A stretch of 22,053 bases of DNA from a virus. Shown here piece after piece: positions 3,299 through 22,053 of the stretch. The stretch lies in the IMG/VR virus record IMGVR_UViG_3300042691_036597, positions 1-22,053 of that record; one strand, written 5' to 3'. Numbering within the stretch: position 1 is the first letter of the stretch; each line of letters opens with the position of its first letter. The position numbers and the translations under genes are program-made. The notes below the pieces were generated by a model. That model was not told the DNA's origin and did no database searches. It saw nothing but the letters and a program-made list of their open reading frames with translations.

Positions 3299-3755
3299 GA
3301 GCCGGATCCCGCTCGGCCTGTTCGAGGCCATGAGCCGCTGGTACTTCGGCGGCTCCGTCGAACGGGAGCGCCCCCTGGAACTCGGGATGGGCCAGATAGT
3401 CACAGTTTCCGATGCTTGGCTAGGGGTGCTCTGTCTGGCCTACTACGGCAACGGCCCCCGCCACCCGTCCGTGGGATCCAGTGGGGGTGCCACCGTGGGT
3501 GCCGAGCTCCCGCCCAAGGAGACGGTCATCCAATATGCTCAGCTCAAACCACAGGTCCGCATGATCCCGGGAGGGTATGCGGCAAAGAAGGCACAGGCGA
3601 ACAATGGCAACCGACCCGATCAAGCTGACCAAGGACCCGATGGGGCTCGCGAGGATCATCGACGAGCACTGCGAACGGGAGCAGAGCCGGCTGGCGTACC
3701 GGAGGGCTTCCTGGCTGGTGGCGCTGTACTACCTGATGGGGGCCCGGCAGTTTGA
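3252..3755 (+). CDS. unrecognised ORF between terL and portal
   Basis: 167 aa if started at ATG 3252, inside the end of terL. The 305 bases between the terL stop and the portal start would otherwise be empty. In this frame third positions from about 3299 to 3603 are almost all G or C, as in the neighbouring genes, which argues for real coding. After 3604 that signature disappears and the portal frame takes over, so the last ~50 codons look overprinted or non-functional. The Shine-Dalgarno is weak (GAGA, 3242-3245). The sequence includes a hydrophobic patch (AWLGVLCLAYYG) and a basic segment (YAAKKAQ). The repeated CAGTGGGGGT motif at 3479 is in the same SGG register as in confirmed genes. No family is recognised. 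Confidence 0.5.
   Translation: MHEPRIQDQPATPRSESRIPLGLFEAMSRWYFGGSVERERPLELGMGQIVTVSDAWLGVLCLAYYGNGPRHPSVGSSGGATVGAELPPKETVIQYAQLKPQVRMIPGGYAAKKAQANNGNRPDQADQGPDGAREDHRRALRTGAEPAGVPEGFLAGGAVLPDGGPAV
3479..3489 (+). repeat. CAGTGGGGGTG motif copy 1
   Basis: Full 11-base form on the plus strand, encoding Ser-Gly-Gly-Ala in the 3252 frame. Confidence 0.9.
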
Positions 3756-5604
3756 CGTGTTCGACCCGGTCAGCGGGTCCGTGCGCTACTCGTACCTCGA
3801 CGAGGACGACCGCCTGGACTTCCAGTCGAGCGAGCTCCTGAGCGCGGTCGACAAGATCTCCGGCCGTCTGAGCAGCCTCGACTTCCGGCCGCTGGTGCAG
3901 CGCGTGGGCTCATCGCTGAGCTCGATCCGGCAGCGGTCGATCGCGCAGATCATGCTGGACCAGGTGGTCTCGGAGCACCAGCTGCAGCGCGTGGTGCCGC
4001 AGTTCAACCACGTGTTCACGCTGCTCGGCTCGTGCGGCATCACCGGCCACATGGTGAACCATCCGACGGTCGGCATGACGGCCGACCTCGAGGTCGTGCA
4101 CCCGATGGAGCTGTTCCCGTTCCCGAGCCTGACGCAGGACTACACCAAGCAGCGCGGGCTCCTGCGCCAGCGCATGGTGTCCCTCGAGTACCTGAAGGAC
4201 GTGTTCGGAGCGAAGGTGTCCCGCAACAAGGACCGGCTCGAATACTTCACGATCAAGCCGGGCGAGACCTTCGAGCAGCAGACCGCCAACGAGTACGTGC
4301 TCGGCTCCAACGTCCAGTATTCGGACACCAAGGTCGTGGGCTCCGATCCGAAGTACGACGCCATCGAGGTCGTGAAGGTGCGCGAGCTCTGGCTCAAGGG
4401 CCCCCGGGACACCGTGAGCCGCTACGTGGTGACGAGCGGCGAGTACGTGATCCACGACGAGGAGTTCGAGGGCCGCGAGGTCTACTGCCCGATCGGGTTC
4501 GCCCGCTTCATGGAGAACGGCACGTTCCACGGCGCCGGTGTCTTCGACCTCCTGTTCCCGCTGTGCCGCGAGGCCGAGAAGCTCCAGAAGCAGCTCTTCA
4601 AGAACATCCACGACATCGACCGGTACGGAGTCCTCGTGCTGCCGCACGGCTCGTTCAACGCGAACACGATGCTGCGCGACGTCGGCAAGGGCCTGCGGGT
4701 GTTCCCGTGGGAGCCCGATCCGATCAGCGAGGGCTTCCGGCCTTTCAACATCACGCCGTTCAACTCGGGCGACGTGCCCGGCAAGGTGAGCGCGTTCGCG
4801 GTCCAGCAGATCGACCGCCTCAATCCGATCCGCGACCTGATCGCCGAGAAGGGACGGGTCGACTCGGCGACCGGCCTGCAGTTCCTGGACGAGCAGGTCA
4901 ACAGGGCGATGAACACCCCCACTGCCGGCGTGCAGGCGGCTTGGGGCGACTGCTACCGGAGCGTGCTTGCGGGCACGGTGCGCGAGGTCGTGTTCAGCCC
5001 GAAGACGTTCACGGTCGACCAGCTCACTCTCGATCTTGCGGGCGTCGTGGTGGACCCGGAGACGATGGCCGTCAGCTTCGAGCAGAACCCGCTGCCGTCG
5101 CTGAGCCAGCTCTCGTTCAAGATCAAGGACATCAACCCGCGGAGCAAGGTGGCCCGCAAGCAGGAGGCCCTGCAGCTCCAGCAGCAGTTCCAGATCGACG
5201 CCGACACCTTCATGCTGTTCGCGCTGAAGGAAGGCCTCGACTTCGCGATGTGGACCGACGAGCACCAGAGCGCCTACGAGTCGGTGGTCCGCAACTGCCT
5301 GCTCCTGTACGGCGACGGCAAGGTGCCCGGGCAGGTGGTGCTGACGCCGCAGACCTCGAAGCCCGAGATGCAGATCCGGGTGCTCAACTCCTTCATGGCC
5401 GGCCCCACGATGGCGGTGGCGTCGGCAGAGGTGCAGAACGCATTCATCGAGTACCATAAGACACTGATGGGCTTTATGGGCTTGGTACTTCCGAACGCCC
5501 TTCCCAACCCGGACGATATGGCTATGCTAGGCAAGCTGGACCAGCAGATGGCCCAGATGCAGGGCATGCAGCAGCCACAGGTTCCCCAGATGCAAGGGAT
5601 GTAA
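3604..5604 (+). CDS. portal protein
   Basis: 666 aa from ATG 3604 (AAGAAGG at 3585-3591). An in-frame ATG at 3577 is possible, but its purine run GGGAGGG (3569-3575) ends one base before it and the nine extra residues are just basic filler. Portals form a dodecameric ring at one capsid vertex, serving as the terminase docking site and DNA channel. Evidence is the position directly after terL and before scaffold and capsid genes, the typical 600-700 aa length, and the mixed alpha/beta body with an N-terminal helical region. The C-terminal tail is Met/Gln-rich with repeated MQGM (QMAQMQGMQQPQVPQMQGM), as many portals end in a flexible helical barrel or tail. No single diagnostic residue is used, so the call rests on synteny and overall character. 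Confidence 0.85.
   Translation: MATDPIKLTKDPMGLARIIDEHCEREQSRLAYRRASWLVALYYLMGARQFDVFDPVSGSVRYSYLDEDDRLDFQSSELLSAVDKISGRLSSLDFRPLVQRVGSSLSSIRQRSIAQIMLDQVVSEHQLQRVVPQFNHVFTLLGSCGITGHMVNHPTVGMTADLEVVHPMELFPFPSLTQDYTKQRGLLRQRMVSLEYLKDVFGAKVSRNKDRLEYFTIKPGETFEQQTANEYVLGSNVQYSDTKVVGSDPKYDAIEVVKVRELWLKGPRDTVSRYVVTSGEYVIHDEEFEGREVYCPIGFARFMENGTFHGAGVFDLLFPLCREAEKLQKQLFKNIHDIDRYGVLVLPHGSFNANTMLRDVGKGLRVFPWEPDPISEGFRPFNITPFNSGDVPGKVSAFAVQQIDRLNPIRDLIAEKGRVDSATGLQFLDEQVNRAMNTPTAGVQAAWGDCYRSVLAGTVREVVFSPKTFTVDQLTLDLAGVVVDPETMAVSFEQNPLPSLSQLSFKIKDINPRSKVARKQEALQLQQQFQIDADTFMLFALKEGLDFAMWTDEHQSAYESVVRNCLLLYGDGKVPGQVVLTPQTSKPEMQIRVLNSFMAGPTMAVASAEVQNAFIEYHKTLMGFMGLVLPNALPNPDDMAMLGKLDQQMAQMQGMQQPQVPQMQGM
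4914..4924 (-). repeat. CAGTGGGGGTG motif copy 2
   Basis: Full 11-base form on the minus strand; reads CACCCCCACTG on plus, encoding Thr-Pro-Thr in the portal. Confidence 0.9.
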
Positions 5605-6540
5605 ATGGACCCCCTAGACCTTCAGAGCAGGATCAAGCTGGACGACGGCAGCGAGGTTTCCGTAGCCGATCTCATCCAGAGCCGCAAGGACCTTGAGGAC
5701 GCGATCAAGATCAACGACACGCTGCAGAAGGACCTGCAGGAAGTCGGCGTCCTCTTCCAGGCCGGCATCCGGCCCGAGCGACGCGAGAACGCGATCCGCA
5801 ACGTGCTGGAGAACCTCGGCTACGAGGACCAGCAGATCACCCAGTACCTCGACGCAAGCCGTCAGGCCCGGACCCCCCAGGCCCCGGAGCCGGAAGCCCC
5901 GGACGACGACGAGATCGAGGAGATCGAGCTGCCGGACCTGCCGGACGAGGACGACGACATCGAGGATTCCAGTGGGGGTGAACAAGAGGACACCATGAGC
6001 ACAGAGCGTGAACAGCAGTTGCGGCAGGAGCTCGAGGCCCAGCGGGCGGAGATCCACAAGATGCGGGTGCGCGAGCTCCGCGAAAACCTGAACTCCCAGC
6101 TGGACCGGGTGTTGAAAAACAACCCGGACTTCCAGAAACTCATTGAGAGCGCACGGTCGACCCGTGGCGACGACGGCGTGAAGCAGGCAGAGCAGACGCT
6201 CCGGTCACAACTGGAGCAAAGGGCTCTGGAGCGCATGCAGTCCCGCCGGGCGACCGCCGGTACCTTCGAGGACTCTTGGATGTCCGAGGAGGTCGAGAAG
6301 GCAGTCGAGCCCGTCGTGGGCTCTTTCCGGTCGGTAATCGGCGACATCGACAAGCTCGGTCGGTCGTCGGAAACGGTCACTGGACTCGATGCGCAGGAGA
6401 TTCTGCGCAGCAAGCCTGTTCCTGTCCCGGAGTACAAGCCGGGCGCGACCCTCACGGACGTCGAATCGGACGTGAAGAACTACGCGGCCGACACGATCCG
6501 GCGGGCACTGGCATCGTCTCCAGGTGAATCCGTCGTCTGA
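5605..6540 (+). CDS. capsid scaffolding protein
   Basis: 311 aa, starting one base after the portal stop. Scaffolding proteins nucleate and shape the procapsid and leave before DNA fills it. The evidence is composition and place. There is an N-terminal helical part (1-90), a strongly acidic linker (about 94-129, with DDDEIEEIELPDLPDEDDD), and a Gln/Glu/Arg-rich coiled coil (about 133-165). A C-terminal region follows (about 215-311), which in scaffolds often contacts the coat. The gene sits between portal and major capsid genes. No Ser-His protease motif is evident, so this looks like a scaffold without a fused protease. An internal ATG (5995) with its own SD could give a shorter form. Confidence 0.8.
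   Translation: MDPLDLQSRIKLDDGSEVSVADLIQSRKDLEDAIKINDTLQKDLQEVGVLFQAGIRPERRENAIRNVLENLGYEDQQITQYLDASRQARTPQAPEPEAPDDDEIEEIELPDLPDEDDDIEDSSGGEQEDTMSTEREQQLRQELEAQRAEIHKMRVRELRENLNSQLDRVLKNNPDFQKLIESARSTRGDDGVKQAEQTLRSQLEQRALERMQSRRATAGTFEDSWMSEEVEKAVEPVVGSFRSVIGDIDKLGRSSETVTGLDAQEILRSKPVPVPEYKPGATLTDVESDVKNYAADTIRRALASSPGESVV
5970..5980 (+). repeat. CAGTGGGGGTG motif copy 3
   Basis: Full 11-base form, encoding Ser-Gly-Gly in the scaffold acidic linker, 14 bases before the possible internal start at 5995. Confidence 0.9.
5995..6540 (+). CDS. possible nested short scaffold (internal start)
   Basis: In-frame Met131 of the scaffold gene begins at ATG 5995, preceded by AAGAGGA at 5984-5990 with 4-nt spacing. 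It opens exactly at the start of the coiled-coil part, after the acidic linker (MSTEREQQLRQEL). It would encode 181 aa, containing only the coiled coil and the C-terminal region. Nested scaffolds made from an internal start are established for lambda (Nu3 within gene C). Whether this start is used here is inference. A copy of the repeated CAGTGGGGGT motif lies just upstream at 5970. Confidence 0.35.
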   Translation: MSTEREQQLRQELEAQRAEIHKMRVRELRENLNSQLDRVLKNNPDFQKLIESARSTRGDDGVKQAEQTLRSQLEQRALERMQSRRATAGTFEDSWMSEEVEKAVEPVVGSFRSVIGDIDKLGRSSETVTGLDAQEILRSKPVPVPEYKPGATLTDVESDVKNYAADTIRRALASSPGESVV

Positions 6541-6555
6541 CAAAGGAAGTGAACC

Positions 6556-8217
6556 ATGCCATTCGCAACAACCGGCTCGATCTTCGACCGGCATTCCAAC
6601 CGCATTCAGGAAGTCCTCAACAAGTCCCTCCGGGTGTTCCTCGCCGGCCTTGATCCGGTGTGGCGTGATAGCGTCGTCACCAGCCAGGGCGTCGGCAGCA
6701 ACTCCGATCTCGGCCGCGACCTCAAGATCACCAAGCTCTTTATGGGCAGCCTCACCGGTGTGATCGATCCGGGTCGTCCGTACGGCGAGCAGGACCTCTA
6801 CGGCGACAAGACTTCGACGCTCGGCCAGCTCATGCACACGCAGAGCCTCAATCAGGCGTATCCGAGCCCGACCGAGGGCCCGAACGCCACGGCGTACCGG
6901 CTCGCGATTCCGATGAAGTCGCTCGTCACCAACCTGATGATCACTCTCGGTGAGAAGCAGGCCGATGCGACCCCGGCGCTCATCGACCAGGTCGTGGCCC
7001 CGAAGCTGACGGCGTTCGCCCGCAACATGGCGCACACGCTGTGCAACTACTGGTACCTCAGCCAGAACAGCTCGTACCGGCTCTGCCTCATGTCCAACAG
7101 CGAGGTCATCAAGGTGGCTTCGGCGGGCGGTGTGGCGGATCACTGGAAGATCCGGTTCAATCCGCTTGGATTCGAGACCCACCGGTTCAGCCGGGGTCAG
7201 CGCGTCGACATCATCCACCCGTCCAACGGTCTTCGGGCCAACGATTCGCAGTCCACGCTCGGAAACCAGAAGACCACGACCCGCACTCAGTTGATCGTCG
7301 AGAGCGTCGATCCCCTGCAGAACCGCGTCGTCCTCGTCTCCAGCTCGGATACGAACCTGTTCTTTGATAACGCGGGCGCCGCGGCGGGCGCGGCGGCGAC
7401 GACCAGTTGGGCGGCCCAGACGGACTTCGACAACGCGGCGATCGTGTATGCGAATACGTCGATGAACGCCAGCAACGTCGGATCGAACACGTTCGTGGGC
7501 ATCGCCGGCATCAACAGCTGGCTCAAGAACGGCAACGAGACCAACACTGACGGCACCAGGCTGCTGGGCGCCGAGGCGGATTCGTCGGACTACATCGACG
7601 TGAACGACCGGCCGGAGTTCAAGAGCTTCAAGTACGACGTGGCCGGTGCGCTCACCGAGTACAACCTGAAGCGGTACCTCCAGCGCGTGCACTCGGCGTT
7701 CGAGCCGAACGGCAACACCATCGACACGCTGATCGCGTCCGAGGGCGTGTGGACCGCGTACGAGGCCCAGAAGATCGGCCAGTACCGGATCGACCGCACC
7801 AGCCGGGTGGCGTCGATCACGAACGAGGGCCAGGCCGAGGGCTTCAGCTTCAACTTCGAGGGCAAGACCTACAAGGGTCACACCTCGCGGTACGTGGAGG
7901 GCGGCACCCTCTACGGCATCAAGCTGGGCGGCAAGAACTGGAAGAAGTACGTTCCGCCGAGCCCGGCCGGACTGTCGAAGATGAGCCAGGCCGATGCGTA
8001 CGTGCCGTTCGAGTTCGTCGCGGGCGCCATCACCGGCACCAGCACGAACCAGCTGCCGATGTTCAACATCGTCGGGTCGAACAACCTGGTGACGCAGGCC
8101 AGCCAGATGCCGGGCCGCATCCGCATGCAGCTCGTGCCCGATCAGGTCAACGGCATGAAGCTCGTCGGCATCGCCGAGGATCGCGTGTACATGCCGAGCA
8201 CCGGCAACATCGCCTGA
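6556..8217 (+). CDS. major capsid protein
   Basis: 553 aa with a good ribosome site (AAGGAAG, 6543-6549, six bases before the ATG). Its position directly after the scaffold, its length and its composition fit a major capsid protein, probably of the HK97 fold. The N-terminal arm mentions helices (SIFDRHSNRIQEVLNKSLRV), followed by a long mixed body. A central Ala/Gly/Ser/Asn-rich insertion lies at about residues 270-330 (NAGAAAGAAATTSWAA), possibly a surface-exposed loop or domain. The C-terminal part is beta-rich (VPFEFVAGAITG, PGRIRMQLVPDQVNGMKLVG). No repeat motif copy lies in this gene. A strong hairpin terminator follows at once. Confidence 0.83.
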   Translation: MPFATTGSIFDRHSNRIQEVLNKSLRVFLAGLDPVWRDSVVTSQGVGSNSDLGRDLKITKLFMGSLTGVIDPGRPYGEQDLYGDKTSTLGQLMHTQSLNQAYPSPTEGPNATAYRLAIPMKSLVTNLMITLGEKQADATPALIDQVVAPKLTAFARNMAHTLCNYWYLSQNSSYRLCLMSNSEVIKVASAGGVADHWKIRFNPLGFETHRFSRGQRVDIIHPSNGLRANDSQSTLGNQKTTTRTQLIVESVDPLQNRVVLVSSSDTNLFFDNAGAAAGAAATTSWAAQTDFDNAAIVYANTSMNASNVGSNTFVGIAGINSWLKNGNETNTDGTRLLGAEADSSDYIDVNDRPEFKSFKYDVAGALTEYNLKRYLQRVHSAFEPNGNTIDTLIASEGVWTAYEAQKIGQYRIDRTSRVASITNEGQAEGFSFNFEGKTYKGHTSRYVEGGTLYGIKLGGKNWKKYVPPSPAGLSKMSQADAYVPFEFVAGAITGTSTNQLPMFNIVGSNNLVTQASQMPGRIRMQLVPDQVNGMKLVGIAEDRVYMPSTGNIA

Positions 8218-8238
8218 TCCTGAGTCAGACGGTACAAT

Positions 8239-8274
8239 GGGGCCATCCCGTAAATGGGGTGGCCCCTATTCTTT
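8239..8274 (+). terminator. rho-independent terminator after capsid gene
   Basis: GGGGCCATCCC (8239-8249) can pair with GGGGTGGCCCC (8256-8266) to form an 11-bp stem with one T-G wobble and a 6-base loop (gtaaat). A T-rich run, tattcttt, follows (8267-8274). It lies in the only clear gap of this part of the window (8218-8284). Partial termination here would give the capsid gene more transcript than the genes after it. Confidence 0.7.
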
Positions 8275-8284
8275 GGAGAGCAGC

Positions 8285-8836: not shown

Positions 8837-8839
8837 ACC

Positions 8840-9883
8840 ATGCACTCATCAGGCTCCATCCTCAAGACGTACTGCGAGAAGGTCCGGCACTACCTTGATG
8901 ACCCGGACCTGGACGCCAAGTACGACGACAACTACCTGGTGCGGTTCTTCCTGCCGAGCGCGATGACCGACGTCATCTCCCGCGTCTCCCAGATGTCCGA
9001 CGCCCAGATCGTCTCGGCCTTCAACCTGACGCTGGCTCCCGGCACGAACCAGTACAAGCTGCCGCCGGCGGTCGCGCAGGTGCTGAGGATCGGAACCCTC
9101 GAGGCGTCGACGGGCCTGTTCATCGAGGACATGAAGCCGCGCAACCGGTTCAACATGCTCGGCACCAACTGGTCGATCCACGGCAACTCGATCGTGTTCG
9201 AGCCGTCCGTGGACACGGCGAAGACGGTGACCGTGGTGTTCGTGCCGAGCGGCGACGTGATGTGCCACTACGTGTCGACGGCGACAGGCCAGTTGACCGG
9301 TACGGCCGAGTTCGTGATGCCGTCCACGGTGAGCCTGGGTTCGCTCGACAAGCGCCCGAACGCCTACCAGGGTTGCTATCTGCGGATCTTCGGGACCAAC
9401 CAGACCGACGAGGTCGTGGTCTCCTCGCACAATGCCGCCACCCGGACCCTCGGTCTTTCGTTTGCGCCCGTCAACACGGCCGGCGTCGGACAGGTCTACA
9501 GCTACGAGGTGGTGCCGTTCCTGATGGAACCGATGATCGACGCGATCTCGATCAGCGCCGCGATGCGCGCGGGCGTCGGACGCAAGATCAATCAGGCCCA
9601 CATGCAGGCGCTCGCGCTCGCGTACAAGCAGGCCATCAAGACCGCGCACGACACGCTGGCCAACATGAACGGCCGCGTCGGCAAATACTTCGCCGGAGAC
9701 ACCGTAGACGCCAGCCCTTACTTCTACGTCGGCGCCAGCATGGGTGGTTCCAGTTCGCCGGTAGCCAGCCTGTGCAACAACTGCGCCAGCGAGACAACCC
9801 TGCAGGAAGTCCTCGTCAACGTGAACTTCATCCAGGCCCAACTTGATGGCCAAGGCATCAACGGAGGGCTCTGGTACTCTTGA
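8840..9883 (+). CDS. head-tail adaptor (tail tubular A / gp6-like)
   Basis: 347 aa, starting 3 nt after the previous stop. The N-terminus has the pattern seen in short-tailed phage adaptor proteins: a helix, YLDDPD, then DNYLVRFFLPSAMTDVISRV. In T7 gp11-like and HK97 gp6-like families a 'YLnDpd...s.d.Ll.yLN.A' stretch occupies this place. A beta segment with LPPAVAQVLRIG follows, like the 'LPaDf..l.rV' of those families. The protein then runs through a beta-rich insertion (about 130-230) into a helix (NQAHMQALALAYKQAIKTAHDTLA) typical of the ring-forming region. Adaptors form a 12-fold ring under the portal. The stop overlaps the next start (TTGA). Confidence 0.65.
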   Translation: MHSSGSILKTYCEKVRHYLDDPDLDAKYDDNYLVRFFLPSAMTDVISRVSQMSDAQIVSAFNLTLAPGTNQYKLPPAVAQVLRIGTLEASTGLFIEDMKPRNRFNMLGTNWSIHGNSIVFEPSVDTAKTVTVVFVPSGDVMCHYVSTATGQLTGTAEFVMPSTVSLGSLDKRPNAYQGCYLRIFGTNQTDEVVVSSHNAATRTLGLSFAPVNTAGVGQVYSYEVVPFLMEPMIDAISISAAMRAGVGRKINQAHMQALALAYKQAIKTAHDTLANMNGRVGKYFAGDTVDASPYFYVGASMGGSSSPVASLCNNCASETTLQEVLVNVNFIQAQLDGQGINGGLWYS

Positions 9884-12972: not shown

Positions 12973-13413
12973 ATGGCTGACAACGTTGGATACACACCCG
13001 GAGCCGGAGCAACGGTCGCAGCCGACGAGATCGGCGGCATCCTCTTCCAGCGCGTGAAGCCATCAGTGGGGGTGGACGGCACTGCTGTCGATGTCAGCGA
13101 CTCCAATCCCATGCCGGCGCAGGTGACCGGCGAACTGCTCGAGGCCGTCGAGGCCCTCCGCATGGCCGTCCAGTCCCTCAACCGCAACCTGTCCCAATTG
13201 ACGCTCGACAATGCATATCGCGTTCGCGCCGTGCTCGACAGTTCCACCGCCGGTCTTTCCGTCTCAGGCGTTTCCACGGTGACATCCGTGAGCAACGTGA
13301 CCACCTTGAACAGCCTCTCGAATCTGGGTACGACGTTTCAGGCTTCCGATCTACCCCCACTGATTTCGCACATCGCAGCCGACGGGCTTCGCGCAAACAT
13401 CTCGGTGACCTAA
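12973..13413 (+). CDS. putative neck/fibre-associated virion protein
   Basis: 146 aa, GAGG just upstream of the ATG. The N-terminal region (IGGILFQRVKPSVGVDGTA then VDVSDSNPMPAQ) is of the kind seen in phage virion proteins: 'vKv.lG.dGtavDvs...PlPv'. The middle is a helix (about 58-85: LLEAVEALRMAVQSLNRNL). The C-terminus is a Ser/Thr/Val-rich beta stretch. The gene holds two copies of the repeated 10-mer, at 13064 and 13352. They are the only two that do not use the SGG/TPT codon register. Its stop shares one base with the next start (TAATG). Confidence 0.7.
   Translation: MADNVGYTPGAGATVAADEIGGILFQRVKPSVGVDGTAVDVSDSNPMPAQVTGELLEAVEALRMAVQSLNRNLSQLTLDNAYRVRAVLDSSTAGLSVSGVSTVTSVSNVTTLNSLSNLGTTFQASDLPPLISHIAADGLRANISVT
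13064..13074 (+). repeat. CAGTGGGGGTG motif copy 4
   Basis: Full 11-base form in the 12973 gene, in a different register from most copies (Ser-Val-Gly-Val). Confidence 0.9.
13352..13362 (-). repeat. CAGTGGGGGTA motif copy 5
   Basis: Minus strand; the last base is A instead of G. It encodes Leu-Pro-Pro-Leu in the 12973 gene, again off the usual register, 288 bases from copy 4 and opposite to it. Confidence 0.88.
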
Positions 13414-14840
13414 TGACCACTACCAATGGAAACCGCCGAATCCTCGATCTCAAGCGTTGGGAGCTCTGTTCATTTGTGCCCATCGCCACAGGCACCGGAT
13501 CTTTCACGATCCTGAGCCGCCACATTGACCCGGTCGTGATGTATTTCCCCCCCAGCCTGTCGACCCCCTACATCTACTACATCGGGGAAGACGGGTTTTC
13601 GACGCATTCGGCCCATGGGTTGCTCAACAATCCGGCCGCCGGGTCCGCCGGTGCTGCCTCGGCATTCGGACCTTCCGGCACTTGCCCAGTCAACGGGACA
13701 ACGACCTCAGTTCAAATCAACGAATCGCTTCCCCGCGACCTGCGGGGCTACAAGATTCGCATCACCGCGGGCCCTGCTGCCGGGGAAACAAGAACCATCG
13801 CATCCAACACGATCGGCCTCGCAGGCGCCGTCAACGTGACCACCGCATTCTCGACGGCCCCGACAACCGCCAGTTCCTACCAGCTGATCACGCCGCGCTT
13901 CTGGGTCATGTGCCACGGTTCCACGGGTGGCAATAGTTTCAGAATGTACGACTGGGCTACCAACGTCTGGACCGCCATGGCCAATGCACCGGCTTCCTTC
14001 GGAACGGATGCCAAGATGGTGGCCACGCCGTCATTCCTCGATGACGACTACTACGCATTCGCCACGGGCACCGCGACCAGTGGGGGTGCATCCACCCTGA
14101 CCAACAGCGCCAAGAGCTGGACCACGAACCAGTGGACCAACTACCAGATCCGCATCACCGGCGGCACCGGCATCGGGCAGATCAGGACGGTGGCCTCGAA
14201 CACCGGAACCGTGATCACGGTGTCGGTCGCGTGGACGACGCAACCGGACGCGACGTCGACGTATTCGCTGGAAGGCAACGACGACTTCCTGTATCTGTTT
14301 GGAAACAACGCGACAACCACGTGGCGGTATCAGATATCCAGCAACAGCTGGACTTCTCGTGCTGCCCGTGGAGGTAGCGCCGGTGCGGGCTTGAGCGGCC
14401 AATGGATCTACGAGGTACTGGACGCGGATTGGAACGTCGAGAATACGATCAAGAACGGCCGATACATCTATAGTTTCCGAGGTGGATCCACCCAGAATCT
14501 GGACGTGTACGACATCGCCGGAAACTCGTGGACCACAAGCATCCCCCCCGCACTGTCTTCAGCAGAGGTGAATGGATCCGGGTGGAAATACTCGTACTCG
14601 AACGGGCAGATCTATGTGCTTCCGGGAGTGGGAGGAACCACCGGTGGAAACCGTGTGTTGAAGTTCGACATCCCGAAGAACCAATGGGAACCGTTCTCCC
14701 AGATGCACTACACGCAGTCGACGGCGGTGGTGGGTGACACGATGTTCAACGTCCGGTACAAGGACGGGGCCACCAAGATCGATTACGTATACATCATGTT
14801 GAACTCAAGCAACACGATGCTGCGCTGCATGGTGATCTGA
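13413..14840 (+). CDS. beta-propeller virion protein with duplicated domain
   Basis: 475 aa. Two similar segments, about residues 87-158 and 216-286, share the scheme Y-x-I-R-I-T-x-G-x-x-x-G-x-x-R-T-[IV]-A-S-N-T. In the first this reads YKIRITAGPAAGETRTIASN; in the second it reads YQIRITGGTGIGQIRTVASN. Each ends in T-[TP]-x-x-x-[AS]-S-x-Y-x-L. The second half has kelch-like blades: DDFLYLFGNNATTTWRYQ, GRYIYSFRGG, then WTTSIPP, and YVLPGVGGTTGGNRVLKF followed by NQWEPF. This suggests a propeller-type adhesin or tail-surface protein; receptor or glycan binding is inference. Confidence 0.72.
   Translation: MTTTNGNRRILDLKRWELCSFVPIATGTGSFTILSRHIDPVVMYFPPSLSTPYIYYIGEDGFSTHSAHGLLNNPAAGSAGAASAFGPSGTCPVNGTTTSVQINESLPRDLRGYKIRITAGPAAGETRTIASNTIGLAGAVNVTTAFSTAPTTASSYQLITPRFWVMCHGSTGGNSFRMYDWATNVWTAMANAPASFGTDAKMVATPSFLDDDYYAFATGTATSGGASTLTNSAKSWTTNQWTNYQIRITGGTGIGQIRTVASNTGTVITVSVAWTTQPDATSTYSLEGNDDFLYLFGNNATTTWRYQISSNSWTSRAARGGSAGAGLSGQWIYEVLDADWNVENTIKNGRYIYSFRGGSTQNLDVYDIAGNSWTTSIPPALSSAEVNGSGWKYSYSNGQIYVLPGVGGTTGGNRVLKFDIPKNQWEPFSQMHYTQSTAVVGDTMFNVRYKDGATKIDYVYIMLNSSNTMLRCMVI
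14078..14088 (+). repeat. CAGTGGGGGTG motif copy 6
   Basis: Full 11-base form, Ser-Gly-Gly-Ala at the start of the second duplicated domain of the propeller protein. Confidence 0.9.
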
Positions 14841-14992
14841 TGTTCCTGACGCTGCTCCAGTCCCAGGCGGCGGGCACCACGGCCTACATCAAGGTGTCCG
14901 GGACATGGCAGCCGGCGACCGTGTACATCAAGGTGTCGGGCACCTGGCAGGTTGCGACGTCGTTCATCAAGGTCTCTGGAATCTGGGAGTGA
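14840..14992 (+). CDS. 50-aa triple-repeat virion protein
   Basis: This small gene lies between two large ones. ATG 14840 shares a base with the previous TGA, and the stop lies 3 nt before the next ATG. The protein opens MFLTLLQSQAAG and then carries three tandem units around [YF]IKVSG-x-W, spaced about 15 residues: AYIKVSGTWQPA, VYIKVSGTWQVA and FIKVSGIWE. Such IKV-G-W repeats are found in phage structural proteins and make short beta-hairpins. The regular repeat and clean coupling on both sides support a real gene. Its function is unknown; a small fibre or collar piece is possible. Confidence 0.75.
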   Translation: MFLTLLQSQAAGTTAYIKVSGTWQPATVYIKVSGTWQVATSFIKVSGIWE

Positions 14993-14995
14993 CCG

Positions 14996-17185
14996 ATGCC
15001 GAACGGCATGATCTCGAGCGTGTGCTGCTGCAGCGTGGACCCGCTCGTGTGCGAGGCCTGGGAGATCTGCAAGCTCGAGGGGCAGTCGACGTGCAATGTC
15101 ACCCCCACTGCTCAGCCGGTGATTCCGGGGTACGTGTCGATCGGAAGGCCGCTGGGACCCACGCTGTTCGACGGGCCGTTCTGGGTGGGATGGCACAACT
15201 CGGTCACCTCGACGAGGAATGCGAAGGTCCAGCTGCAGCTGAGCATCACGGCGTACAGGCGCGTGATCGTGCAGGACGACACGTCGCCTCCGGGATGCAC
15301 CACGTGTCCGGCACTGCCGCCGATCCCCGATGCCAAGCTGAACTGCACTCCATCGGCCGTGTCGGCGATCGCCGGATGCGGGCGAACCGAGTACATCGAC
15401 AACTTCAGCTACGAGCTCAACGGAACCTTCGACCTGATCGGAGGCGCGAAGAACCAGGTGATCTGCGGCTACGGCGAGTTCGACGAGGATCCGGGCGCGC
15501 CTCCGGGCCCGTGGCCCTTCGTGCTGACGGACGTGAACCGCACGGGCTTGACGCCGAACGATGCCTGGCAAGGCGGTGACAACCCGATATGGTGGCCCGC
15601 CGAGAACCGCAGGATCGTGCCGAGGTTCTTCGGGCAGGCGACCGTCACCTCGACGGCCGTGCCTTCGATGGAGTTCCCGCAGGTGGCGCCCTGCGGCACG
15701 ATCCAGCACATCAACAGATGCACCAACGTGACCGTGCAGTCCTTGAGGAGCGTCTGCGTGGATGCCCCGATCACCGTCGTGCCCGGGCACACCACGACGT
15801 TCACGCAGTCCGACATCGACCGGTGCACCTATGCCGGAGGCTGTCAGGGTTGCGGATTTCCGTTCGTCGGCTCGGGGGATCCGGCAGGTAGCGGCGTCCA
15901 GGCCAGCGAACTGCAGCCCCGCAACGGAGGGAGCCAGGCGGCATGGGGCGTCGACGTGTACGAGCTGGGGCTGCGGGACCTGATGAACACCATGTTCCCG
16001 ACGAACCATCCGTACATCGGGTCGCTCGACGAGGTGTGGACCGCGCAGACCGACCACGACCGCACCCGATTCCTCTACGGGATGCTGACCCGCTTGAGCG
16101 CCGATCAGGTGCTCAGGTTCCCCGACGGGCAGCAGAAGGTCGAGATCCACGACGTCGACTTCCAGGTCCGTGGACATTCGGTAGCCATGCACATCGAGCT
16201 CAGGATGACGCCGGTGGACTGGTGCGTGCACTCCGAGGACTGCGCCGGATTGTGCGTGCACTCGTGGTGCGAGAACGGGCCTGGAGCCATCGGGATCACC
16301 TTCTTTACGAATGGCAAGCTTGGACAGGGATTCTGTGGTGCCGATTTCAAGCCGGCAGGTGGAATCGCCCTCGGCTTAGAGGGCTATCAGATGCCTGCTT
16401 GCGCATTGATAACGTCCTGTGGGGCCAGCGCGACCACCAACTGCATGCAGTATCCGGTTCATACCACCTGCATCGGGCGCACCTGCGGTCTTTACGCCGA
16501 TGACTATGTCGGTGCAAAGCCCGTCGAGCGTCACCATCTTGGATGGAAGAGATATCGCAACAAGTACAACAATTCATGCTGCCTCAACGGGGGCTGCATC
16601 AGCCCGGGCGATGTGCCCTGCGCAGCCCGGGGATTCCAGATCGCCTCGGGAGGAGAACTTTGGCTGGACGATCCAAGCGGCTGCTATGGCCCGGACACCA
16701 ATTCGCAGGCTTGCGTGGACCCCGATGGCGACGGGGTGGTTGACTGCGATGTCGACTATGCGGGGCACCCATGGCCGAGCGACTGCCCGGGTGGTTACGG
16801 CAATCCAACCGCTGGATTCTGCTGCGGAGGTTGTCCTCCCGGAAGCATCGTCTTCTATCCACCCCCCTGTCAACGGGTCAGCATAGATCCCAACTTCCTC
16901 GGGTACTACGTGACCCTCGAACCTTCGGCGTGTCCCAACTACTTCCAGTGCGGAGGCTGCAACTTCGAGATCAATCCCGATTTCACCAATGGCGCATCTC
17001 CGTCTATCAACTACTGCAACTGCGCGTGCATCAGTTCAAGTATGGGCAGTTACCAGTTGTGGGTGGACTGGGATGTGACCTGGAGTTGCGGACCCATAGG
17101 TACTTGGCCTTTGTACTTTGGAACCACCTGCTACACTGGACCCATTACCCCGGACATGGTGGCAGGAAAGGCGGTGGTCTCGTGA
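14996..17185 (+). CDS. Cys-rich structural protein
   Basis: 729 aa with GGGAG at 14985-14989 before the ATG. It contains about 47 cysteines (over 6%), including a CCC cluster at residues 10-12 and many CxxC or CC pairs in the second half. Residues about 571-581 (DPDGDGVVDCD) form a DxDxDG calcium-binding loop like those of thrombospondin type-3 or EF-hand-like repeats. The first half (about 40-420) is beta-rich with Trp, Pro and Gly. I do not recognise the family. The richness in Cys suggests disulfide cross-linking outside the cell or metal binding, and the place between fibre-like genes and the nozzle-like gene suggests an external virion protein. Composition becomes somewhat less GC-rich in the last third. 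Confidence 0.75.
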   Translation: MPNGMISSVCCCSVDPLVCEAWEICKLEGQSTCNVTPTAQPVIPGYVSIGRPLGPTLFDGPFWVGWHNSVTSTRNAKVQLQLSITAYRRVIVQDDTSPPGCTTCPALPPIPDAKLNCTPSAVSAIAGCGRTEYIDNFSYELNGTFDLIGGAKNQVICGYGEFDEDPGAPPGPWPFVLTDVNRTGLTPNDAWQGGDNPIWWPAENRRIVPRFFGQATVTSTAVPSMEFPQVAPCGTIQHINRCTNVTVQSLRSVCVDAPITVVPGHTTTFTQSDIDRCTYAGGCQGCGFPFVGSGDPAGSGVQASELQPRNGGSQAAWGVDVYELGLRDLMNTMFPTNHPYIGSLDEVWTAQTDHDRTRFLYGMLTRLSADQVLRFPDGQQKVEIHDVDFQVRGHSVAMHIELRMTPVDWCVHSEDCAGLCVHSWCENGPGAIGITFFTNGKLGQGFCGADFKPAGGIALGLEGYQMPACALITSCGASATTNCMQYPVHTTCIGRTCGLYADDYVGAKPVERHHLGWKRYRNKYNNSCCLNGGCISPGDVPCAARGFQIASGGELWLDDPSGCYGPDTNSQACVDPDGDGVVDCDVDYAGHPWPSDCPGGYGNPTAGFCCGGCPPGSIVFYPPPCQRVSIDPNFLGYYVTLEPSACPNYFQCGGCNFEINPDFTNGASPSINYCNCACISSSMGSYQLWVDWDVTWSCGPIGTWPLYFGTTCYTGPITPDMVAGKAVVS
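15100..15110 (-). repeat. CAGTGGGGGTG motif copy 7
   Basis: Full 11-base form on minus; Thr-Pro-Thr near the N-terminus of the Cys-rich protein. Confidence 0.9.
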
Positions 17186-17604
17186 TCGATTGCAAGTATT
17201 GGAAGGATTGTGGAGTCAAGGGTGGGGGTTGCTGCACTGAGGGCTTGTACAGCGGACAGCCCTCGTTCGGCATCTGCATGTCCTGCTCGAACCGCACCCC
17301 CACTGGTCAAGAGGAGCCCATCGGGTTCCAGAAGATGGGGTTCGTGTCGAAGGCCGTCTCGTACGCCAAGGCCGAGATCTCGGCGCTGGTGTCCAGCATC
17401 CCGGACGAGGAGTTCCAGTTCCGCATGTCCCAGTGCAAGGCGTGTCCCCGGCTTGAGGCGGCGCCCGAACCGCAGGTGGGATGGTGCGGAGCCTGCGGTT
17501 GCGGCCGCGGGGTCCGGGCCGAACTGACGATCAAGGGGAAGATGCCGAAGGCGCACTGCCCGCTCAACAAGTGGGCCAAACCCCCCGATACTCCGAACGG
17601 GTGA
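17182..17604 (+). CDS. small Cys-cluster (zinc-ribbon-like) protein, GTG start
   Basis: 140 aa from GTG 17182, which overlaps the preceding TGA (GTGA). Two Cys groups are visible. The N-terminal one (residues 4-38) has the form C-x5-C-x6-CC-x13-C-x2-C. The C-terminal one (about 85-130) reads CKACP, then WCGACGCG, then HCPLNKW. The second group has the spacing of a small zinc-binding module (C-x2-C ... C-x2-C-G-C ... C-P-x-x-K-W) that recurs in short phage proteins. A helix lies between them (about 55-80). Zn binding is inference. It sits directly after the 47-Cys protein and may act with it, for example in folding or assembly. Confidence 0.72.
   Translation: MIDCKYWKDCGVKGGGCCTEGLYSGQPSFGICMSCSNRTPTGQEEPIGFQKMGFVSKAVSYAKAEISALVSSIPDEEFQFRMSQCKACPRLEAAPEPQVGWCGACGCGRGVRAELTIKGKMPKAHCPLNKWAKPPDTPNG
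17295..17305 (-). repeat. CAGTGGGGGTG motif copy 8
   Basis: Full 11-base form on minus; Thr-Pro-Thr-Gly in the linker between the two Cys groups of the 17182 gene. Confidence 0.9.
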
Positions 17605-17607
17605 CCC

Positions 17608-20600
17608 ATGCCTGAACTGAAGACCGACTGGTCGTATCCCGTCCTAGAGACCACCCTCGACAAGCGCCTTGAGCGGCCGGGGGTGCAGCGTGGCTACTCC
17701 AGCGAGATGACCGGCGTCGACGGCCGCAGCGAAGGCGGACTCAAGCCGTTCCCCGGGTTCAAGCTGGTGCACCGGATGACCCAGCTTCAGAACCAGGCGA
17801 ACCACGGCATCCTGTCGGTCGTGAAGGACTTCAAGCCGATCGACTTCAGGATCGGCTCCGAATACTACGGGTACGGCTTCGTGTACCGGGCGCAGCGCAC
17901 CAACAACGCCGCGCTGGCCGACGTCTTCATCGACTACTGGGACTCGGTCAATCAGGCCTGGACCTACTGCTACAAGATCATGAACGCCGTCAGCTCGACG
18001 GACCAGTTCGATGTGCAGGTGGCCGGCCGCTTCGTGTACTGCTTCGTCGCCGGCCGGAGCCCCGCGCTCTTCTACATCGCGGCCACGCGCACCAAGGAGT
18101 ACGCGGCCGAGGCCGACGCGCACCTGCTGTCCGTGTCTCCCACCGTCAACAACGGAACCGCAGCCACCCTTGAGCTGCTGGGTGGCGCCAATCCCCGGCA
18201 TGTGCTGTGGCGCTTCGACACGAGCGCCGAGGCTACCAAGACCGTCGAGACCGCCTTCCTCGAGTTCACGGTCTCCGGCACCCTCGTCTCGACCAGTGGG
18301 GGTGTGAACGTCACGGTCAATCCCGTCACCGATCCCGGGGCCAGCGGCGTCCTGTGGAACGAGACGGAGGTGACCTGGAACAACAGGACGACGGCGACAG
18401 CGTGGTCGACGGCCGGCGGCAGCTACAACGGACTGGTGGGGACCACCGTGAACGTGCCGAAGGGGTTCCTCGGCAAGGTGTCGGTGGACCTGAAGACGAT
18501 CGTGCAGGACTGCCTGAACTCGGTGCACCAGACGTTCACCTCGAAGGTCGACGTGATCGCGAGGAACAGCCTGTCGGAGCTGCTGTCGATCGTGGGCCGA
18601 GGCCAGACGAATCCGGCGATCCTGCCGAAGCTGACGGTGACGTACACCAACAAGGTGTTCCTGACGCCGACGGTTGTCGGGCTCTTGGGGACCGGCACGA
18701 TCCCGGGCCCGGGCAAGCAGCCGGTGCTCGCGAGCCCGGAGCGCGGCATCGCGGGCGGCAGCTACACGACGGTGGACACGGAGCGTCCGGCGACAGCGCA
18801 GGTGCTGCTGGAGCCGGAGAACCCGTACTCGAACGAGGACAACTTCCCGGATCCGCAGTCGGGCCTGTGCGCGGGCGACACCTTTCCGGCGGCCGGTGCC
18901 CCGTTCGTACCCGGCACCGCCCTCGTGCATTCGCCGACGGCCGGCGCCTGCTCAGCGACTCTCGATGGGATCACGGACGCGAACCTCGTGATCCAGCTGC
19001 TGACGCCCGCGAACCGGCAGACCTCGGTGAGCGTGACGCCGCGGCTCGACTGGACGGCGTTCTATGAGAACGGCGGAGCCCTGAGCGCCAACATGAAGTT
19101 CGACGTGTTCCTCGTGCAGGAGGACGTCGGAAACCTTGGGTCGAAGTGCGTGACCGCCGGAAGCCCACTGCCGTGGAACCAGTCGTACTTCGAGCCCGCG
19201 AGCCTGTGGCCCAGCGGCAAGATGCCGTACGGCAAGAAGTTCCTGTGGAAGGTCGTGGCCCGGCGCATCGACTGCGACGACTTCTACATCGAGAGCACCG
19301 TCGGCAGCTTCACCACCGAGAACAAGTACCAGGCCCGCAAGTTCGAGGCCGGCGACTACAGCTTCGGCTACCAGCTGGTGGACTCGAAGACCGGGCGGCA
19401 GAGCGCGCTCAGCAACATCGCGCAGGTGCGCAGCGAGGACTTCACCGTCACGAGGACGCAAGGTGGCAACGCGATCAGCGTGAAGCAGGACCAGTACATG
19501 GGCGTCGAGCTCGTGTACGACTCCGCCAAGTACGACCTGATGTACGTGTATCGCAGCGTCAAGATCCAGGACGCCGGCGGCACCATGATCGCCGGGCTCC
19601 TGTTCCTCGACCGCATCGTCAAGCTGTCGGACTACCTGACGTGCAAGAACGGCGCCGGCGTGTCGTACACGTTCAACACGCTCACCACGTCGAACAGGCA
19701 CGCGATGTACTTCTACGAGCTCGAGGACAAGCAGCTCGTCTACCAGAACCCGTACGTCGACCGCAGCGTGTTCGACGAGACCATGCCGTACGGGGGCGCC
19801 GCGCTCTTCTACCAGAGCACGATGCTGGTGTCGCGCATCGAGACCCCCACTGCATCGACGACCGAGGAGAGCCGCAACGTCGATCCGCACCGCGGTCTCG
19901 GCGAGATGCGCTGGTCCAGCCTGATGGAGATGAGCCCCGAGCTCTTCCCGCCGTTCAACCGGTACAACCCCACGATCCCGAGCAACGAGGTGATCTGCTT
20001 CGCGAGGATCGGCGCGAACGTCGCCGGCATCAGCCGCGACAAGGTGTACCACATCCGCAAGAGCGGGCCCTACGTCAAGGTGACGGAGATGCACGAGGGC
20101 TACGGCATCGTCAACCACAAGGCCGTGGACTCGGTGGGAAGCGCGGCCTACTACGTCAGCAGCCACGGCCTGAAGAGCGTGGACATGCAGGGCCAGCTTG
20201 ACGAGATTCGCAACCTGAACAGCGTGTTCGTCCGCGAGTGGCGCACCGACCTCACCTCGGTGCAGGTCGCGCACGACCCCTTCATGAACTGCCTGTTCGT
20301 GCACAACCCGGTGCAGGCCGAGTCGTACGTGCTCTGGTTCTCGACCGGCAAGACCACCAAGGTGGCCGACGCCAACTTCGATCTTGCGGCCCAGGGTCCG
20401 TGGCCGATCAATTTCACGACGAACCAGTACGGCAACGACCTGTGCCGCCGGGCGTTCTTCCTGCAGAACAACCAGGAGACCCGGGCCAGCGGCACCGGGT
20501 TCAACGTGTTCGCGGGTCCGGCCATCTACATCGTGGACGACGGCGCCACCAAGACGATCAGTGGGGGTACGACATCCTGGAACGGAGCCCGGCGCATCAC

Positions 20601-21330
20601 CACCCTCGACTTCGCCGGCGACTCCCGGTTCGTGGCCTCGGGGGCGGCGTCGAGCGGGGTGATCCCGATCTCGACGGGAACGGGCACGGTGGTGTCGACG
20701 GACGCATGGAAGTTCGCGTACGCCTACCTGGTGCACTCGACCACGATCCCCCAGCACATCGGCAAGAAGTTCAAGGTGATGTACAACACGGCGTCCAACG
20801 TGTACTACGACCCGCTGGTCGTCGGCGGCTGGGCGTCCACGGTCACGGCCGGCGACGTGTTCGTCGTGAGCCCGATCGTGTTCGAGTGGGCCGGGCATCC
20901 GCTGGCACTCACGACGGAGCAGGGCATGGTGTTCTCGAACGCCGACCTGTTCCGCATGAAGGTGATCAGCAGCGTCGGCGCCGCGTTCACCGACGTGTCG
21001 GGACCCCCCACCAGCGACTCCGTGACGGCGGCGACACCCCTTGACCGGTACACGGGCCTCGTGTACTCCGGGACGCTGGATGCGCCCGTGGCCACGGCCC
21101 AGACAAAGGACACGAATGGAAACCTGTACTCGTCTGTGGAGGACGATGAAGGCGTGGTGTACGCTGCCTTTGGATCTGATGCTTCCGACGGGAAGTACGG
21201 CGTCAAGGGGACGACCCTGACGCCCGGCATCCGCATTCTTTGCCCCGACCTGGATTTCCGATTGCTTGGCTGCATTGTCCGTGGGACCATCACTGCGGTG
21301 GAGCGCACGAACAACATTCGAGGTAGCTGA
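17608..21330 (+). CDS. tail nozzle-like protein with DNRLRE module
   Basis: 1240 aa, starting 3 nt after the preceding stop. Domains, approximate: 1-180 beta-propeller start (RRYY-like aromatic strands such as YYGYGFVYRAQ). Residues 185-350 form a DNRLRE/CBM96-type module, with ATLELLGG, VLWRFDTS, a segment VLWNETEVTWNNRT, and PKLTVTYTN near its end. Residues about 455-570 are Ig/FN3-like (TPRLDWTAFYENGG). Residues about 580-700 contain YSFGYQLVDSKTGRQSALSN. Residues about 720-1010 look like propeller blades (RIGANVAGISRDKVYHIR, GSAAYYVSSHGLKSVD). Nozzle proteins of short-tailed phages (T7 gp12-like) close the tail and are beta-propellers of 700-900 aa. This one is longer because of the inserted modules. 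The nozzle call is from fold impression and position; sugar binding by the DNRLRE module is inference. Confidence 0.68.
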   Translation: MPELKTDWSYPVLETTLDKRLERPGVQRGYSSEMTGVDGRSEGGLKPFPGFKLVHRMTQLQNQANHGILSVVKDFKPIDFRIGSEYYGYGFVYRAQRTNNAALADVFIDYWDSVNQAWTYCYKIMNAVSSTDQFDVQVAGRFVYCFVAGRSPALFYIAATRTKEYAAEADAHLLSVSPTVNNGTAATLELLGGANPRHVLWRFDTSAEATKTVETAFLEFTVSGTLVSTSGGVNVTVNPVTDPGASGVLWNETEVTWNNRTTATAWSTAGGSYNGLVGTTVNVPKGFLGKVSVDLKTIVQDCLNSVHQTFTSKVDVIARNSLSELLSIVGRGQTNPAILPKLTVTYTNKVFLTPTVVGLLGTGTIPGPGKQPVLASPERGIAGGSYTTVDTERPATAQVLLEPENPYSNEDNFPDPQSGLCAGDTFPAAGAPFVPGTALVHSPTAGACSATLDGITDANLVIQLLTPANRQTSVSVTPRLDWTAFYENGGALSANMKFDVFLVQEDVGNLGSKCVTAGSPLPWNQSYFEPASLWPSGKMPYGKKFLWKVVARRIDCDDFYIESTVGSFTTENKYQARKFEAGDYSFGYQLVDSKTGRQSALSNIAQVRSEDFTVTRTQGGNAISVKQDQYMGVELVYDSAKYDLMYVYRSVKIQDAGGTMIAGLLFLDRIVKLSDYLTCKNGAGVSYTFNTLTTSNRHAMYFYELEDKQLVYQNPYVDRSVFDETMPYGGAALFYQSTMLVSRIETPTASTTEESRNVDPHRGLGEMRWSSLMEMSPELFPPFNRYNPTIPSNEVICFARIGANVAGISRDKVYHIRKSGPYVKVTEMHEGYGIVNHKAVDSVGSAAYYVSSHGLKSVDMQGQLDEIRNLNSVFVREWRTDLTSVQVAHDPFMNCLFVHNPVQAESYVLWFSTGKTTKVADANFDLAAQGPWPINFTTNQYGNDLCRRAFFLQNNQETRASGTGFNVFAGPAIYIVDDGATKTISGGTTSWNGARRITTLDFAGDSRFVASGAASSGVIPISTGTGTVVSTDAWKFAYAYLVHSTTIPQHIGKKFKVMYNTASNVYYDPLVVGGWASTVTAGDVFVVSPIVFEWAGHPLALTTEQGMVFSNADLFRMKVISSVGAAFTDVSGPPTSDSVTAATPLDRYTGLVYSGTLDAPVATAQTKDTNGNLYSSVEDDEGVVYAAFGSDASDGKYGVKGTTLTPGIRILCPDLDFRLLGCIVRGTITAVERTNNIRGS
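18294..18304 (+). repeat. CAGTGGGGGTG motif copy 9
   Basis: Full 11-base form; Ser-Gly-Gly-Val in a loop of the DNRLRE-type module. Confidence 0.9.
19842..19852 (-). repeat. CAGTGGGGGTC motif copy 10
   Basis: Minus strand; core 10-mer intact, last base C. Thr-Pro-Thr in the nozzle-like protein. Confidence 0.88.
20559..20569 (+). repeat. CAGTGGGGGTA motif copy 11
   Basis: Plus strand; core intact, last base A. Ser-Gly-Gly-Thr in the nozzle-like protein. Confidence 0.88.
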
Positions 21331-22053
21331 TGAGCCAGTTCAACACCTACAACCAGAGCACGGATCCGCTGGGTTCGCTGATCACCCCCACTGGATCGAA
21401 GCCCGCCAAGCCCCGTCAGCCGGCGGGTCCCAAGTTCGGCACCATCAAGCCGATCGGGGGGCAGGCCCCGCAGGGAATGCCGACCACGGGGATGCCGCTG
21501 CCGTCGAGCCGTCCGGCCCCGGGCGCGATCCAGCAGGCGGCCGCACAGCCCAACGCGCACCTGCGCATGGGCGGATTCCCCAATGTCCCGATGACCCCGT
21601 TCGCCCCGGTCCCGCTCTTCTCGGTCAGTGGGGGTGCAACCGGGGCCGGACCCATGACCGTCCAGCAGCCGGCCATCTTCCCGGGTACGCCGGCGCCGGG
21701 TGGGCAGACGCTTGGGTTCCCGGCGGGCTACGCGGCGTGGGATCAGGCGCTGGCGAACGCGATCGGGTTCGACATGCGGAACCAGCAGGGCGCCATGAAC
21801 GAGCTGTACGGGCAGGTGGCCGGGCAGATCGGGCAGTACGAGCAGGCGCTTGGGCAGGGCCTTGGGACGCTGGAGCGAGTCGGGCAGGAGCAGCGGGGTG
21901 CGCTGCAGGGGATCGCCGGCGGCTTGGAGCAGAAGGGCCAGCAGGGCTACGAGGAGTTCAAGGCGTTCCGCGACCAGCAGATGCAGGCGGTCGGCGGAGA
22001 CATCTCGAAGGCAAACCAGCAGGCTGCGGCCGCGGTCCAGAACTACCGGGACG
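21330..22053 (+). CDS. Gly/Gln/Ala/Pro-rich virion protein, 3' end outside window
   Basis: ATG 21330 shares a base with the nozzle stop; the frame stays open to the window edge, giving at least 241 codons. The first ~150 residues are low-complexity Pro/Gly/Ala/Met. A helical, Gln/Gly/Ala-rich region follows (NAIGFDMRNQQGAMNELYGQ, GLGTLERVGQEQRGALQGI), probably a coiled coil. Short-tailed phages encode internal core or ejection proteins just after the nozzle, and these are helical and Gln/Ala-rich, so that is a reasonable guess. A coiled-coil fibre or tail-assembly protein is also possible. It carries two motif copies (21383 minus, 21626 plus). Confidence 0.75.
   Translation, partial: MSQFNTYNQSTDPLGSLITPTGSKPAKPRQPAGPKFGTIKPIGGQAPQGMPTTGMPLPSSRPAPGAIQQAAAQPNAHLRMGGFPNVPMTPFAPVPLFSVSGGATGAGPMTVQQPAIFPGTPAPGGQTLGFPAGYAAWDQALANAIGFDMRNQQGAMNELYGQVAGQIGQYEQALGQGLGTLERVGQEQRGALQGIAGGLEQKGQQGYEEFKAFRDQQMQAVGGDISKANQQAAAAVQNYRD
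21383..21393 (-). repeat. CAGTGGGGGTG motif copy 12
   Basis: Full 11-base form on minus; Thr-Pro-Thr-Gly near the N-terminus of the last gene. Flanked by GATC on both sides. Confidence 0.9.
21626..21636 (+). repeat. CAGTGGGGGTG motif copy 13
   Basis: Full 11-base form; Ser-Gly-Gly-Ala in the last gene, 243 bases from copy 12 and opposite to it. Confidence 0.9.

Follow-up and report, generated by a model that had tools for sequence, protein, structure and literature searches.

A G-rich word dispersed over both strands in a family of uncultured phages points to a genome-wide signal most like bacterial Chi

The window analysed here, a 22,053-nucleotide IMG/VR virus record (IMGVR_UViG_3300042691_036597), is a 22-kb fragment of an uncultured tailed phage with a genome of ~52 kb; its landmark genes and the copies of the word described below are collected in Table 1. 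No nucleotide or protein relatives of the window were found among about 50,700 phage records, no cultured relatives of the phage in the collections searched and no portal relatives in GTDB contigs; IMG/VR scans yield about 220 related loci. In several family contigs of 50.8-53.1 kb the first bases recur near the end, which sets the size of family genomes at about 52 kb. These genomes are laid out as one structural arm and one replication arm of opposite direction, the latter encoding a family A DNA polymerase, a P4-family/D5 helicase, a Sak4-like ATPase, a PD-(D/E)XK exonuclease, an ERCC4-type nuclease and a UDG-superfamily protein. We regard a universal protein of 174-185 aa that adjoins the Sak4-like gene, and has no family hit, as probably SSB-like. 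GC content across the family ranges from 47 to 67%, most genomes carry no tRNAs, and the tetranucleotides of high-GC members resemble those of Actinomycetota in a reference set that is small and biased.

Table 1. Landmark genes and copies of the 10-mer in the window
Feature	Position	Strand	Context and evidence
Terminase large subunit (TerL), 652 aa	1340..3298	+	phrog_38, E=2.8e-38; orients the genomes
Portal-like protein, 675 aa	3577..5604	+	named by synteny, no family hit; basis of the family tree
SU10-type adaptor protein	8840..9883	+	PF24175, E=1.5e-7
Site 1	3479..3488	+	TerL-portal intergenic stretch; kept in 14/15 alignable T-type relatives
Site 2	4915..4924	-	in portal-like gene; kept in 12/20, the others mostly CGGTCGGCGT (site gained or lost)
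Site 3	5970..5979	+	in ORF 5605-6540; kept in 19/20 T-type relatives
Site 4	13064..13073	+	in ORF 12973-13413
Site 5	13353..13362	-	in ORF 12973-13413
Site 6	14078..14087	+	in Kelch-repeat ORF 13413-14840
Site 7	15101..15110	-	in ORF 14996-17185
Site 8	17296..17305	-	in ORF 16771-17604
Site 9	18294..18303	+	in ORF 17608-21330
Site 10	19843..19852	-	in ORF 17608-21330
Site 11	20559..20568	+	in ORF 17608-21330; kept in 5/8 alignable T-type relatives
Site 12	21384..21393	-	downstream of ORF 17608-21330
Site 13	21626..21635	+	near contig end

The 10-mer CAGTGGGGGT occurs exactly 13 times between 3479 and 21635, seven times on the plus strand and six on the minus, as a preliminary description of this DNA had reported. 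Its judgement that the number lies far above chance also holds: dinucleotide shuffles of the window give 0.05 +/- 0.22 copies (0 of 100 reach 13), and codon-preserving shuffles (n=1000; 13 ORFs, 18.9 kb) average 0.06 copies and never exceed 2, against 9 observed. Allowing one mismatch returns only the same 13 sites, versus about 2 extra expected. Chance and codon use are excluded as causes by the shuffles and the mismatch count, and a longer repeat or mobile element is excluded because the flanks are not conserved, which bears out the earlier view that the 10-mers are not parts of a longer element. Its claim of a dispersed signal that protein ancestry does not explain is supported as well, and counts over whole contigs reach 16-27 exact 10-mers in 44-54 kb, so the excess over codon-shuffled expectation stands beyond the window. 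The base after the 10-mer is G in 10 copies, A in 2 and C in 1, in agreement with the earlier tally. The conserved 11-mer proposed from this tally holds in the window but not among relatives, in which only CAGTGGGGG is fixed and position 10 is T, or G in some phages; the G at position 11 is local to the window contig and lies outside the word proper.

When k-mers are scanned without bias against an order-3 Markov model, the 9-mer most over-represented in nearly all well-covered family genomes is a G-rich word, at an observed/expected ratio of roughly 20-180 in most of them. All close relatives of the window phage carry the word. Each clade has its own G-rich version (CAGTGGGGGT/G, GAGTGGGGG, TAGTGGGGAA, TAGCGGGGAA, GTGGGGGGAC, GGCTGGTGGGG, GGAGGGGTT), and spelling follows the clades in a tree of 79 portal sequences. 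Thus CAGTGGGGG with T or G occurs 24-35 times per ~53 kb, versus about 0.3-0.6 expected, GAGTGGGGG reaches 28 copies in phage G027, GTGGGGGGA(C) 31 in G026, TAGCGGGGAA 18 in G016, TAGTGGGGAA 13 in G021 and GGAGGGGTT 44 in 40 kb; further clade words are AGTGGGGGG, GGCTGGTGGGG, GTTGGTGGG and GTGGAGGGGT. The family holds about 8-10 related spellings, with dozens of sites per genome, and by eye all share the core G[T/A/C]GGGG, comparable to GCTGGTGG and AGCGG. Contigs L094, L102 and L036 at first seemed motif-free, but in full they carry TAGTGGGGAA or TAGCGGGGAA; no word was seen in the short L059 and L060. Applied to control phages, the same scan recovers the promoters of T7, ACGTGAGTA in phiC31 and, as a positive control, E. 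coli Chi, which ranks first among the 8-mers of phage P1 (50 in 94.8 kb, 31:19), and finds no comparable word in lambda or D3. Recovery of the P1 Chi and the T7 promoters indicates that the scan finds real signals.

The word recurs about every 2,000 nt, at 0.40-0.56/kb in the five best-sampled classes, 0.23-0.31/kb in single-genome classes and 1.4/kb in the GGAGGGGT class. The portal-sense strand holds 57-74% of copies in the five best-sampled classes, about 2:1. Most clades place 65-74% there, and density and polarity are similar among them irrespective of spelling. In G022 and G027, for which gene calls are reliable, the strand excess holds in both arms despite their opposite gene directions, so it is not a transcription signal. 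A promoter, terminator or RNA-level signal was rejected on this ground and for want of any Rfam match. Spacing within each strand, about 2.4 kb forward and 5 kb reverse, is more even than random: the forward CV is 0.49-0.79 versus about 0.93, and Fisher's combined p is ~4e-9 forward and ~1e-5 reverse, values that are too small because the genomes are related. Forward sites are evenly spaced in the distant clade of G027 as well (p=0.0017). Pooling both strands leaves little evenness (p~2e-3, from genomes that are not independent), and the two orientations therefore seem to be selected separately. Sites do not gather around an origin, and the two orientations are interspersed over the genome.

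Individual sites differ in how long they last. The copies at 3479 and 5970 are kept in 14 of 15 and 19 of 20 relatives, against 10% for random 10-mers, in flanks that are about 73% identical; other window sites turn over among relatives. Had the peptides been kept and the word lost, the preliminary description would have failed, but orthologous sites keep the DNA word. Alignment of these relatives shows the word to be kept by selection. Spelling itself also changes in concert. Within the T-type clade, the last base has gone from T to G in three separate lineages (L017/G043; L072/G042/L020; L031), which carry CAGTGGGGGG almost throughout, including alignment columns with CAGTGGGGGT in T-type phages; site 3, for example, reads CAGTGGGGGG in a multiple alignment of the G-type phages L017, L021 and L031. 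In structural genes, the nearest kin of each G-type lineage outside itself are T-type phages. A T-to-C change in the core separates two sister clades in the same manner: G016 has 18 copies of AGCGGGGAA and 0 of AGTGGGGAA, and G021 has 13 of AGTGGGGAA and 0 of AGCGGGGAA. Single-base switches on such a genome-wide scale imply that each genome has one trans-acting reader, and this clade-by-clade respelling at conserved positions is the strongest evidence for such a specific, still putative, reader. The 13 window sites belong to a strand-specific DNA signal that extends over whole genomes of the phage family, and represent the portion falling in this fragment.

The enrichment is absent from the bacterial genomes sampled and from other phages. 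A scan for pairs, defined as two copies of the word within 30 bases, gave only scattered or tandem-repeat hits in about 85,000 species genomes; by our estimate, an E. coli-like Chi density would produce a few pairs per genome, clustered among related species. Direct counts were at background in 27 mixed genomes, 229 Gammaproteobacteria and 256 Actinomycetota, the 9-mer in the latter two sets lying at or near the level of the reversed control. One genome alone was dense, that of a Coriobacteriales MAG (G078), but its copies have the look of a repeat family and it was set aside. Among 2.9 million viral contigs, the pair scan found dense carriers only in the phage family of the window. A host-wide Chi, uptake or translocation signal is not supported among the genomes sampled, since neither the pair scan nor the class and phylum surveys revealed an enriched host, and the earlier suggestion of a DNA uptake sequence, or of any host-enriched signal, is likewise unsupported: the word reaches such density in no sampled bacterial genome. 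A phage-encoded reader is likelier than host RecBCD/AddAB, since the word tracks the phage phylogeny and the sampled bacteria show no enrichment of it. To judge from these genome comparisons, the strand-specific trans-acting reader is probably phage-encoded, and the host may lie outside the sample.

The reading we favour, tentatively and with rather less than even confidence, is that the word works like Chi; a candidate reader alone is proposed, and membership in Chi is not claimed. An enzyme would enter at a DNA end, travel and read the word on one strand in one orientation, switching there from DNA degradation to feeding DNA into recombination. Dispersed sites would cap the loss of DNA from any broken or terminase-cut end and promote the recombination needed for concatemer building, and the surplus of sites facing the TerL/portal direction would shield the end that remains when packaging begins. 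Chi and cos in lambda offer a precedent for such an orientation, with an enzyme entering at the end left by packaging. Candidates for a phage-encoded reader are the PD-(D/E)XK exonuclease, the Sak4-like recombinase and the SSB-like protein, which are common to the family; these three and the P4-type helicase occur in 12 of 12 genomes compared. The phage exonuclease has no PDB relative by sequence.

What is found is in several respects what a Chi would show, namely an over-represented, dispersed, short and asymmetric word on both strands with a polarity independent of transcription. As a precedent, the Chi of the host is over-represented in phages that lack RecBCD inhibitors (PMC3784561). Among the candidates listed in the preliminary description, Chi is the best fit, with P1-like density and polarity and with one clade whose word contains GCTGGTGG, but the known Chi sequence itself does not account for the window, where GCTGGTGG occurs 3 times, near chance. 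It is enriched only in the G050-G054 clade, inside the longer word GGCTGGTGGGG, and even there TGGTGGGG is more enriched than GCTGGTGG, which makes the likeness to Chi partial. A more far-reaching version, possible but doubtful in our estimation, is that the phages carry their own Chi system, in which a phage end-processing or replication enzyme would read a 9-10-nt word strand by strand, enzyme and dozens of sites would co-evolve, and the clade-specific code would mark DNA as self. We know of no phage-encoded Chi system.

The main rival of the Chi-like reading is that the words are dispersed replication-initiation sites, at which a P4-alpha/D5-type SF3 helicase or a partner primase would load or prime on each strand; we hold this to be rather unlikely. 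The even per-strand spacing is explained as well by such sites, and the intervals on the two strands resemble the Okazaki scale. A P4-family primase C-terminal/D5 helicase is encoded in 12 of 12 genomes (TIGR01613 above cut-off; D5_N, Pox_D5). P4 alpha recognises asymmetric repeats about 10 bp long, and a GTG motif in the template is required by the pRN1 primase. Yet no primase domain turned up in the family proteins scanned, which contain just the C-terminal helicase portion of the P4 family; known primase sites are far shorter than 9-10 nt; and the sites are not clustered at an origin, their orientations being mixed rather than segregated around one. The helicase of the G-type phage L017 has few unique residues and a C-terminal domain without clear change, as seen in one G-type lineage, that of L017, the only one among G-type contigs in which the replication arm is covered.

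An improbable alternative is that the words are localized single-strand nick sites of a phage endonuclease, as in T5, phiKMV-like and LUZ24-like phages. Nick sites are 9-bp, phage-specific and dispersed in and outside genes, with a one-base difference between sister phages at similar positions (PMC3517423, PMC11780129), and the phage family likewise has two oppositely directed gene arms. They lie on one strand only in LUZ24-like phages and, as reported alongside these, in T5 and phiKMV, whereas 26-43% of the family words lie on the other strand, and they are described as uneven, whereas the family words are even and denser. Among precedents for a phage-encoded word that changes by single bases from clade to clade, nick words are nevertheless the best.

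Equally improbable is an ordinary host Chi, in which the sites would serve RecBCD, AddAB or AdnAB of an unsampled host and be respelled at host shifts. In numbers, the Chi-rich P1 matches the family closely, and the three parallel T-to-G switches would fit repeated moves between two host types. A Chi of this kind should, however, be enriched in the genome of the host and in its other phages too. Against this stand the surveys above, with merely scattered or tandem pairs among species genomes, near-control counts in both bacterial groups and dense viral carriers confined to one family, together with the persistence of the word across phages of such different GC.

Least probable is a set of binding sites for a DNA-organising or regulatory phage protein (stoperator-like repressor, partition or packaging sites). 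The stoperators of cluster A mycobacteriophages speak for it, as does a conserved tandem-HTH protein of 90-115 aa whose gene, in several clades, is flanked by those for the nuclease and the DNA polymerase. The word lies inside genes in orientations that ignore transcription, however, and the tandem-HTH protein was rejected as reader since its gene is absent at the matching place in G026 and G031, both with strong words.

Taken together, the findings point to a genome-wide and undescribed signal that is read one strand at a time and is most like bacterial Chi. According to a published statement, no more than five bacterial species have known Chi-like words (PMC8022716). The evolution of such words is difficult to follow, since hundreds of sites have to change at the same time. 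In this phage family, spelling intermediates between sister phages allow the co-evolution of reader and sites to be traced stepwise, and comparison of a small number of shared genes offers a route to the reader. A phage-encoded reader would represent a self-marking or replication system that, as far as we know, has not been described before.

Set beside known systems, the family word resembles Chi as a short, G-rich, asymmetric word dispersed on both strands with moderate polarity; P1, whose richness in Chi is known (PMC3784561), has 0.53 Chi/kb at 62:38 and so comes close to it in density and polarity. Known Chi sequences are 5-8 bp long, whereas the family words need 9-10. The P1 observed/expected ratio is 7, versus a far higher ratio in the family; P1 sites are not evenly spaced, whereas family sites are even per strand; and the family has one spelling per phage clade without enrichment in sampled bacteria. 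Type I iterons of P4 alpha share the asymmetric words of about 10 bp, and their helicase family is present in every member, but they cluster at the origin, whereas the family word is genome-wide on both strands. The nick motifs of LUZ24-like phages (tf, Rembedalsseter), T5 and phiKMV-like phages are 9-bp and phage-specific like the family word, but are strictly on one strand, fewer, unevenly spread and without a G-rich core. In cluster A mycobacteriophages, asymmetric repressor sites are numerous and dispersed, with a sequence that differs between subclusters. These stoperators match the family word in their many asymmetric copies per ~50-kb genome and their subcluster-dependent spelling, but they are mostly intergenic and aligned with transcription, whereas the family word is intragenic and ignores it.

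Among the structural-arm proteins, one of 1235-1240 aa is kept in all genomes compared, and its carbohydrate-binding CBM96 match exceeds the cut-off in locus L147. The Kelch-repeat protein of the same arm is possibly a tail or receptor-binding part. Elsewhere, a conserved protein of 89-115 aa contains two HTH-like stretches, with GerE and Terminase_5 matches; its gene lies between those for an ERCC4-type nuclease and the DNA polymerase, and genomes G026 and G031 carry no such protein at the matching place.

Sites of the word also occur in pairs. The divergent pair ACCCCCACTG-N9-CAGTGGGGGT is retained in six genomes, its L145 copy falling within a 122-aa gene. In G012 and G009, the DNA polymerase region contains two convergent sites separated by 22 bases.

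Positions of paired sites, proteins and bacterial word copies
Feature	Location	Strand	Matches
Divergent pair	L145:578-606
Divergent pair, other genomes	G012 32767; G005 31093; G001 409; G003 10027; G008 28445
Kelch-repeat protein	window 13413-14840		phrog_12615; weak Kelch Pfam
1235-1240-aa protein	window 17608-21330; L147:2838-6545		CBM96
Tandem-HTH protein	L138:6071-6361	-
Tandem-HTH protein	L145:14237-14527	-
Tandem-HTH protein	L157:12694-12963	-
Tandem-HTH protein	L162:9957-10304	+
Tandem-HTH protein	L171:19419-19763	-
Tandem-HTH protein	L374:3074-3388	-
G078 loci	L251-L253, L260, L264, L267, L279, L300

CAGTGGGGGT is present 238 times in G078, a termite-gut Coriobacteriales MAG, with many copies in tandem or paired approximately 130-170 bases apart; these look like a dispersed, unrelated repeat element. 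The distant relative G020 (L168 and L169) has tRNA-His and tRNA-Met genes, which are rare across the phage family. Its word, GGAGGGGT, exceeds twice the family density, with about 1.4/kb in its class.
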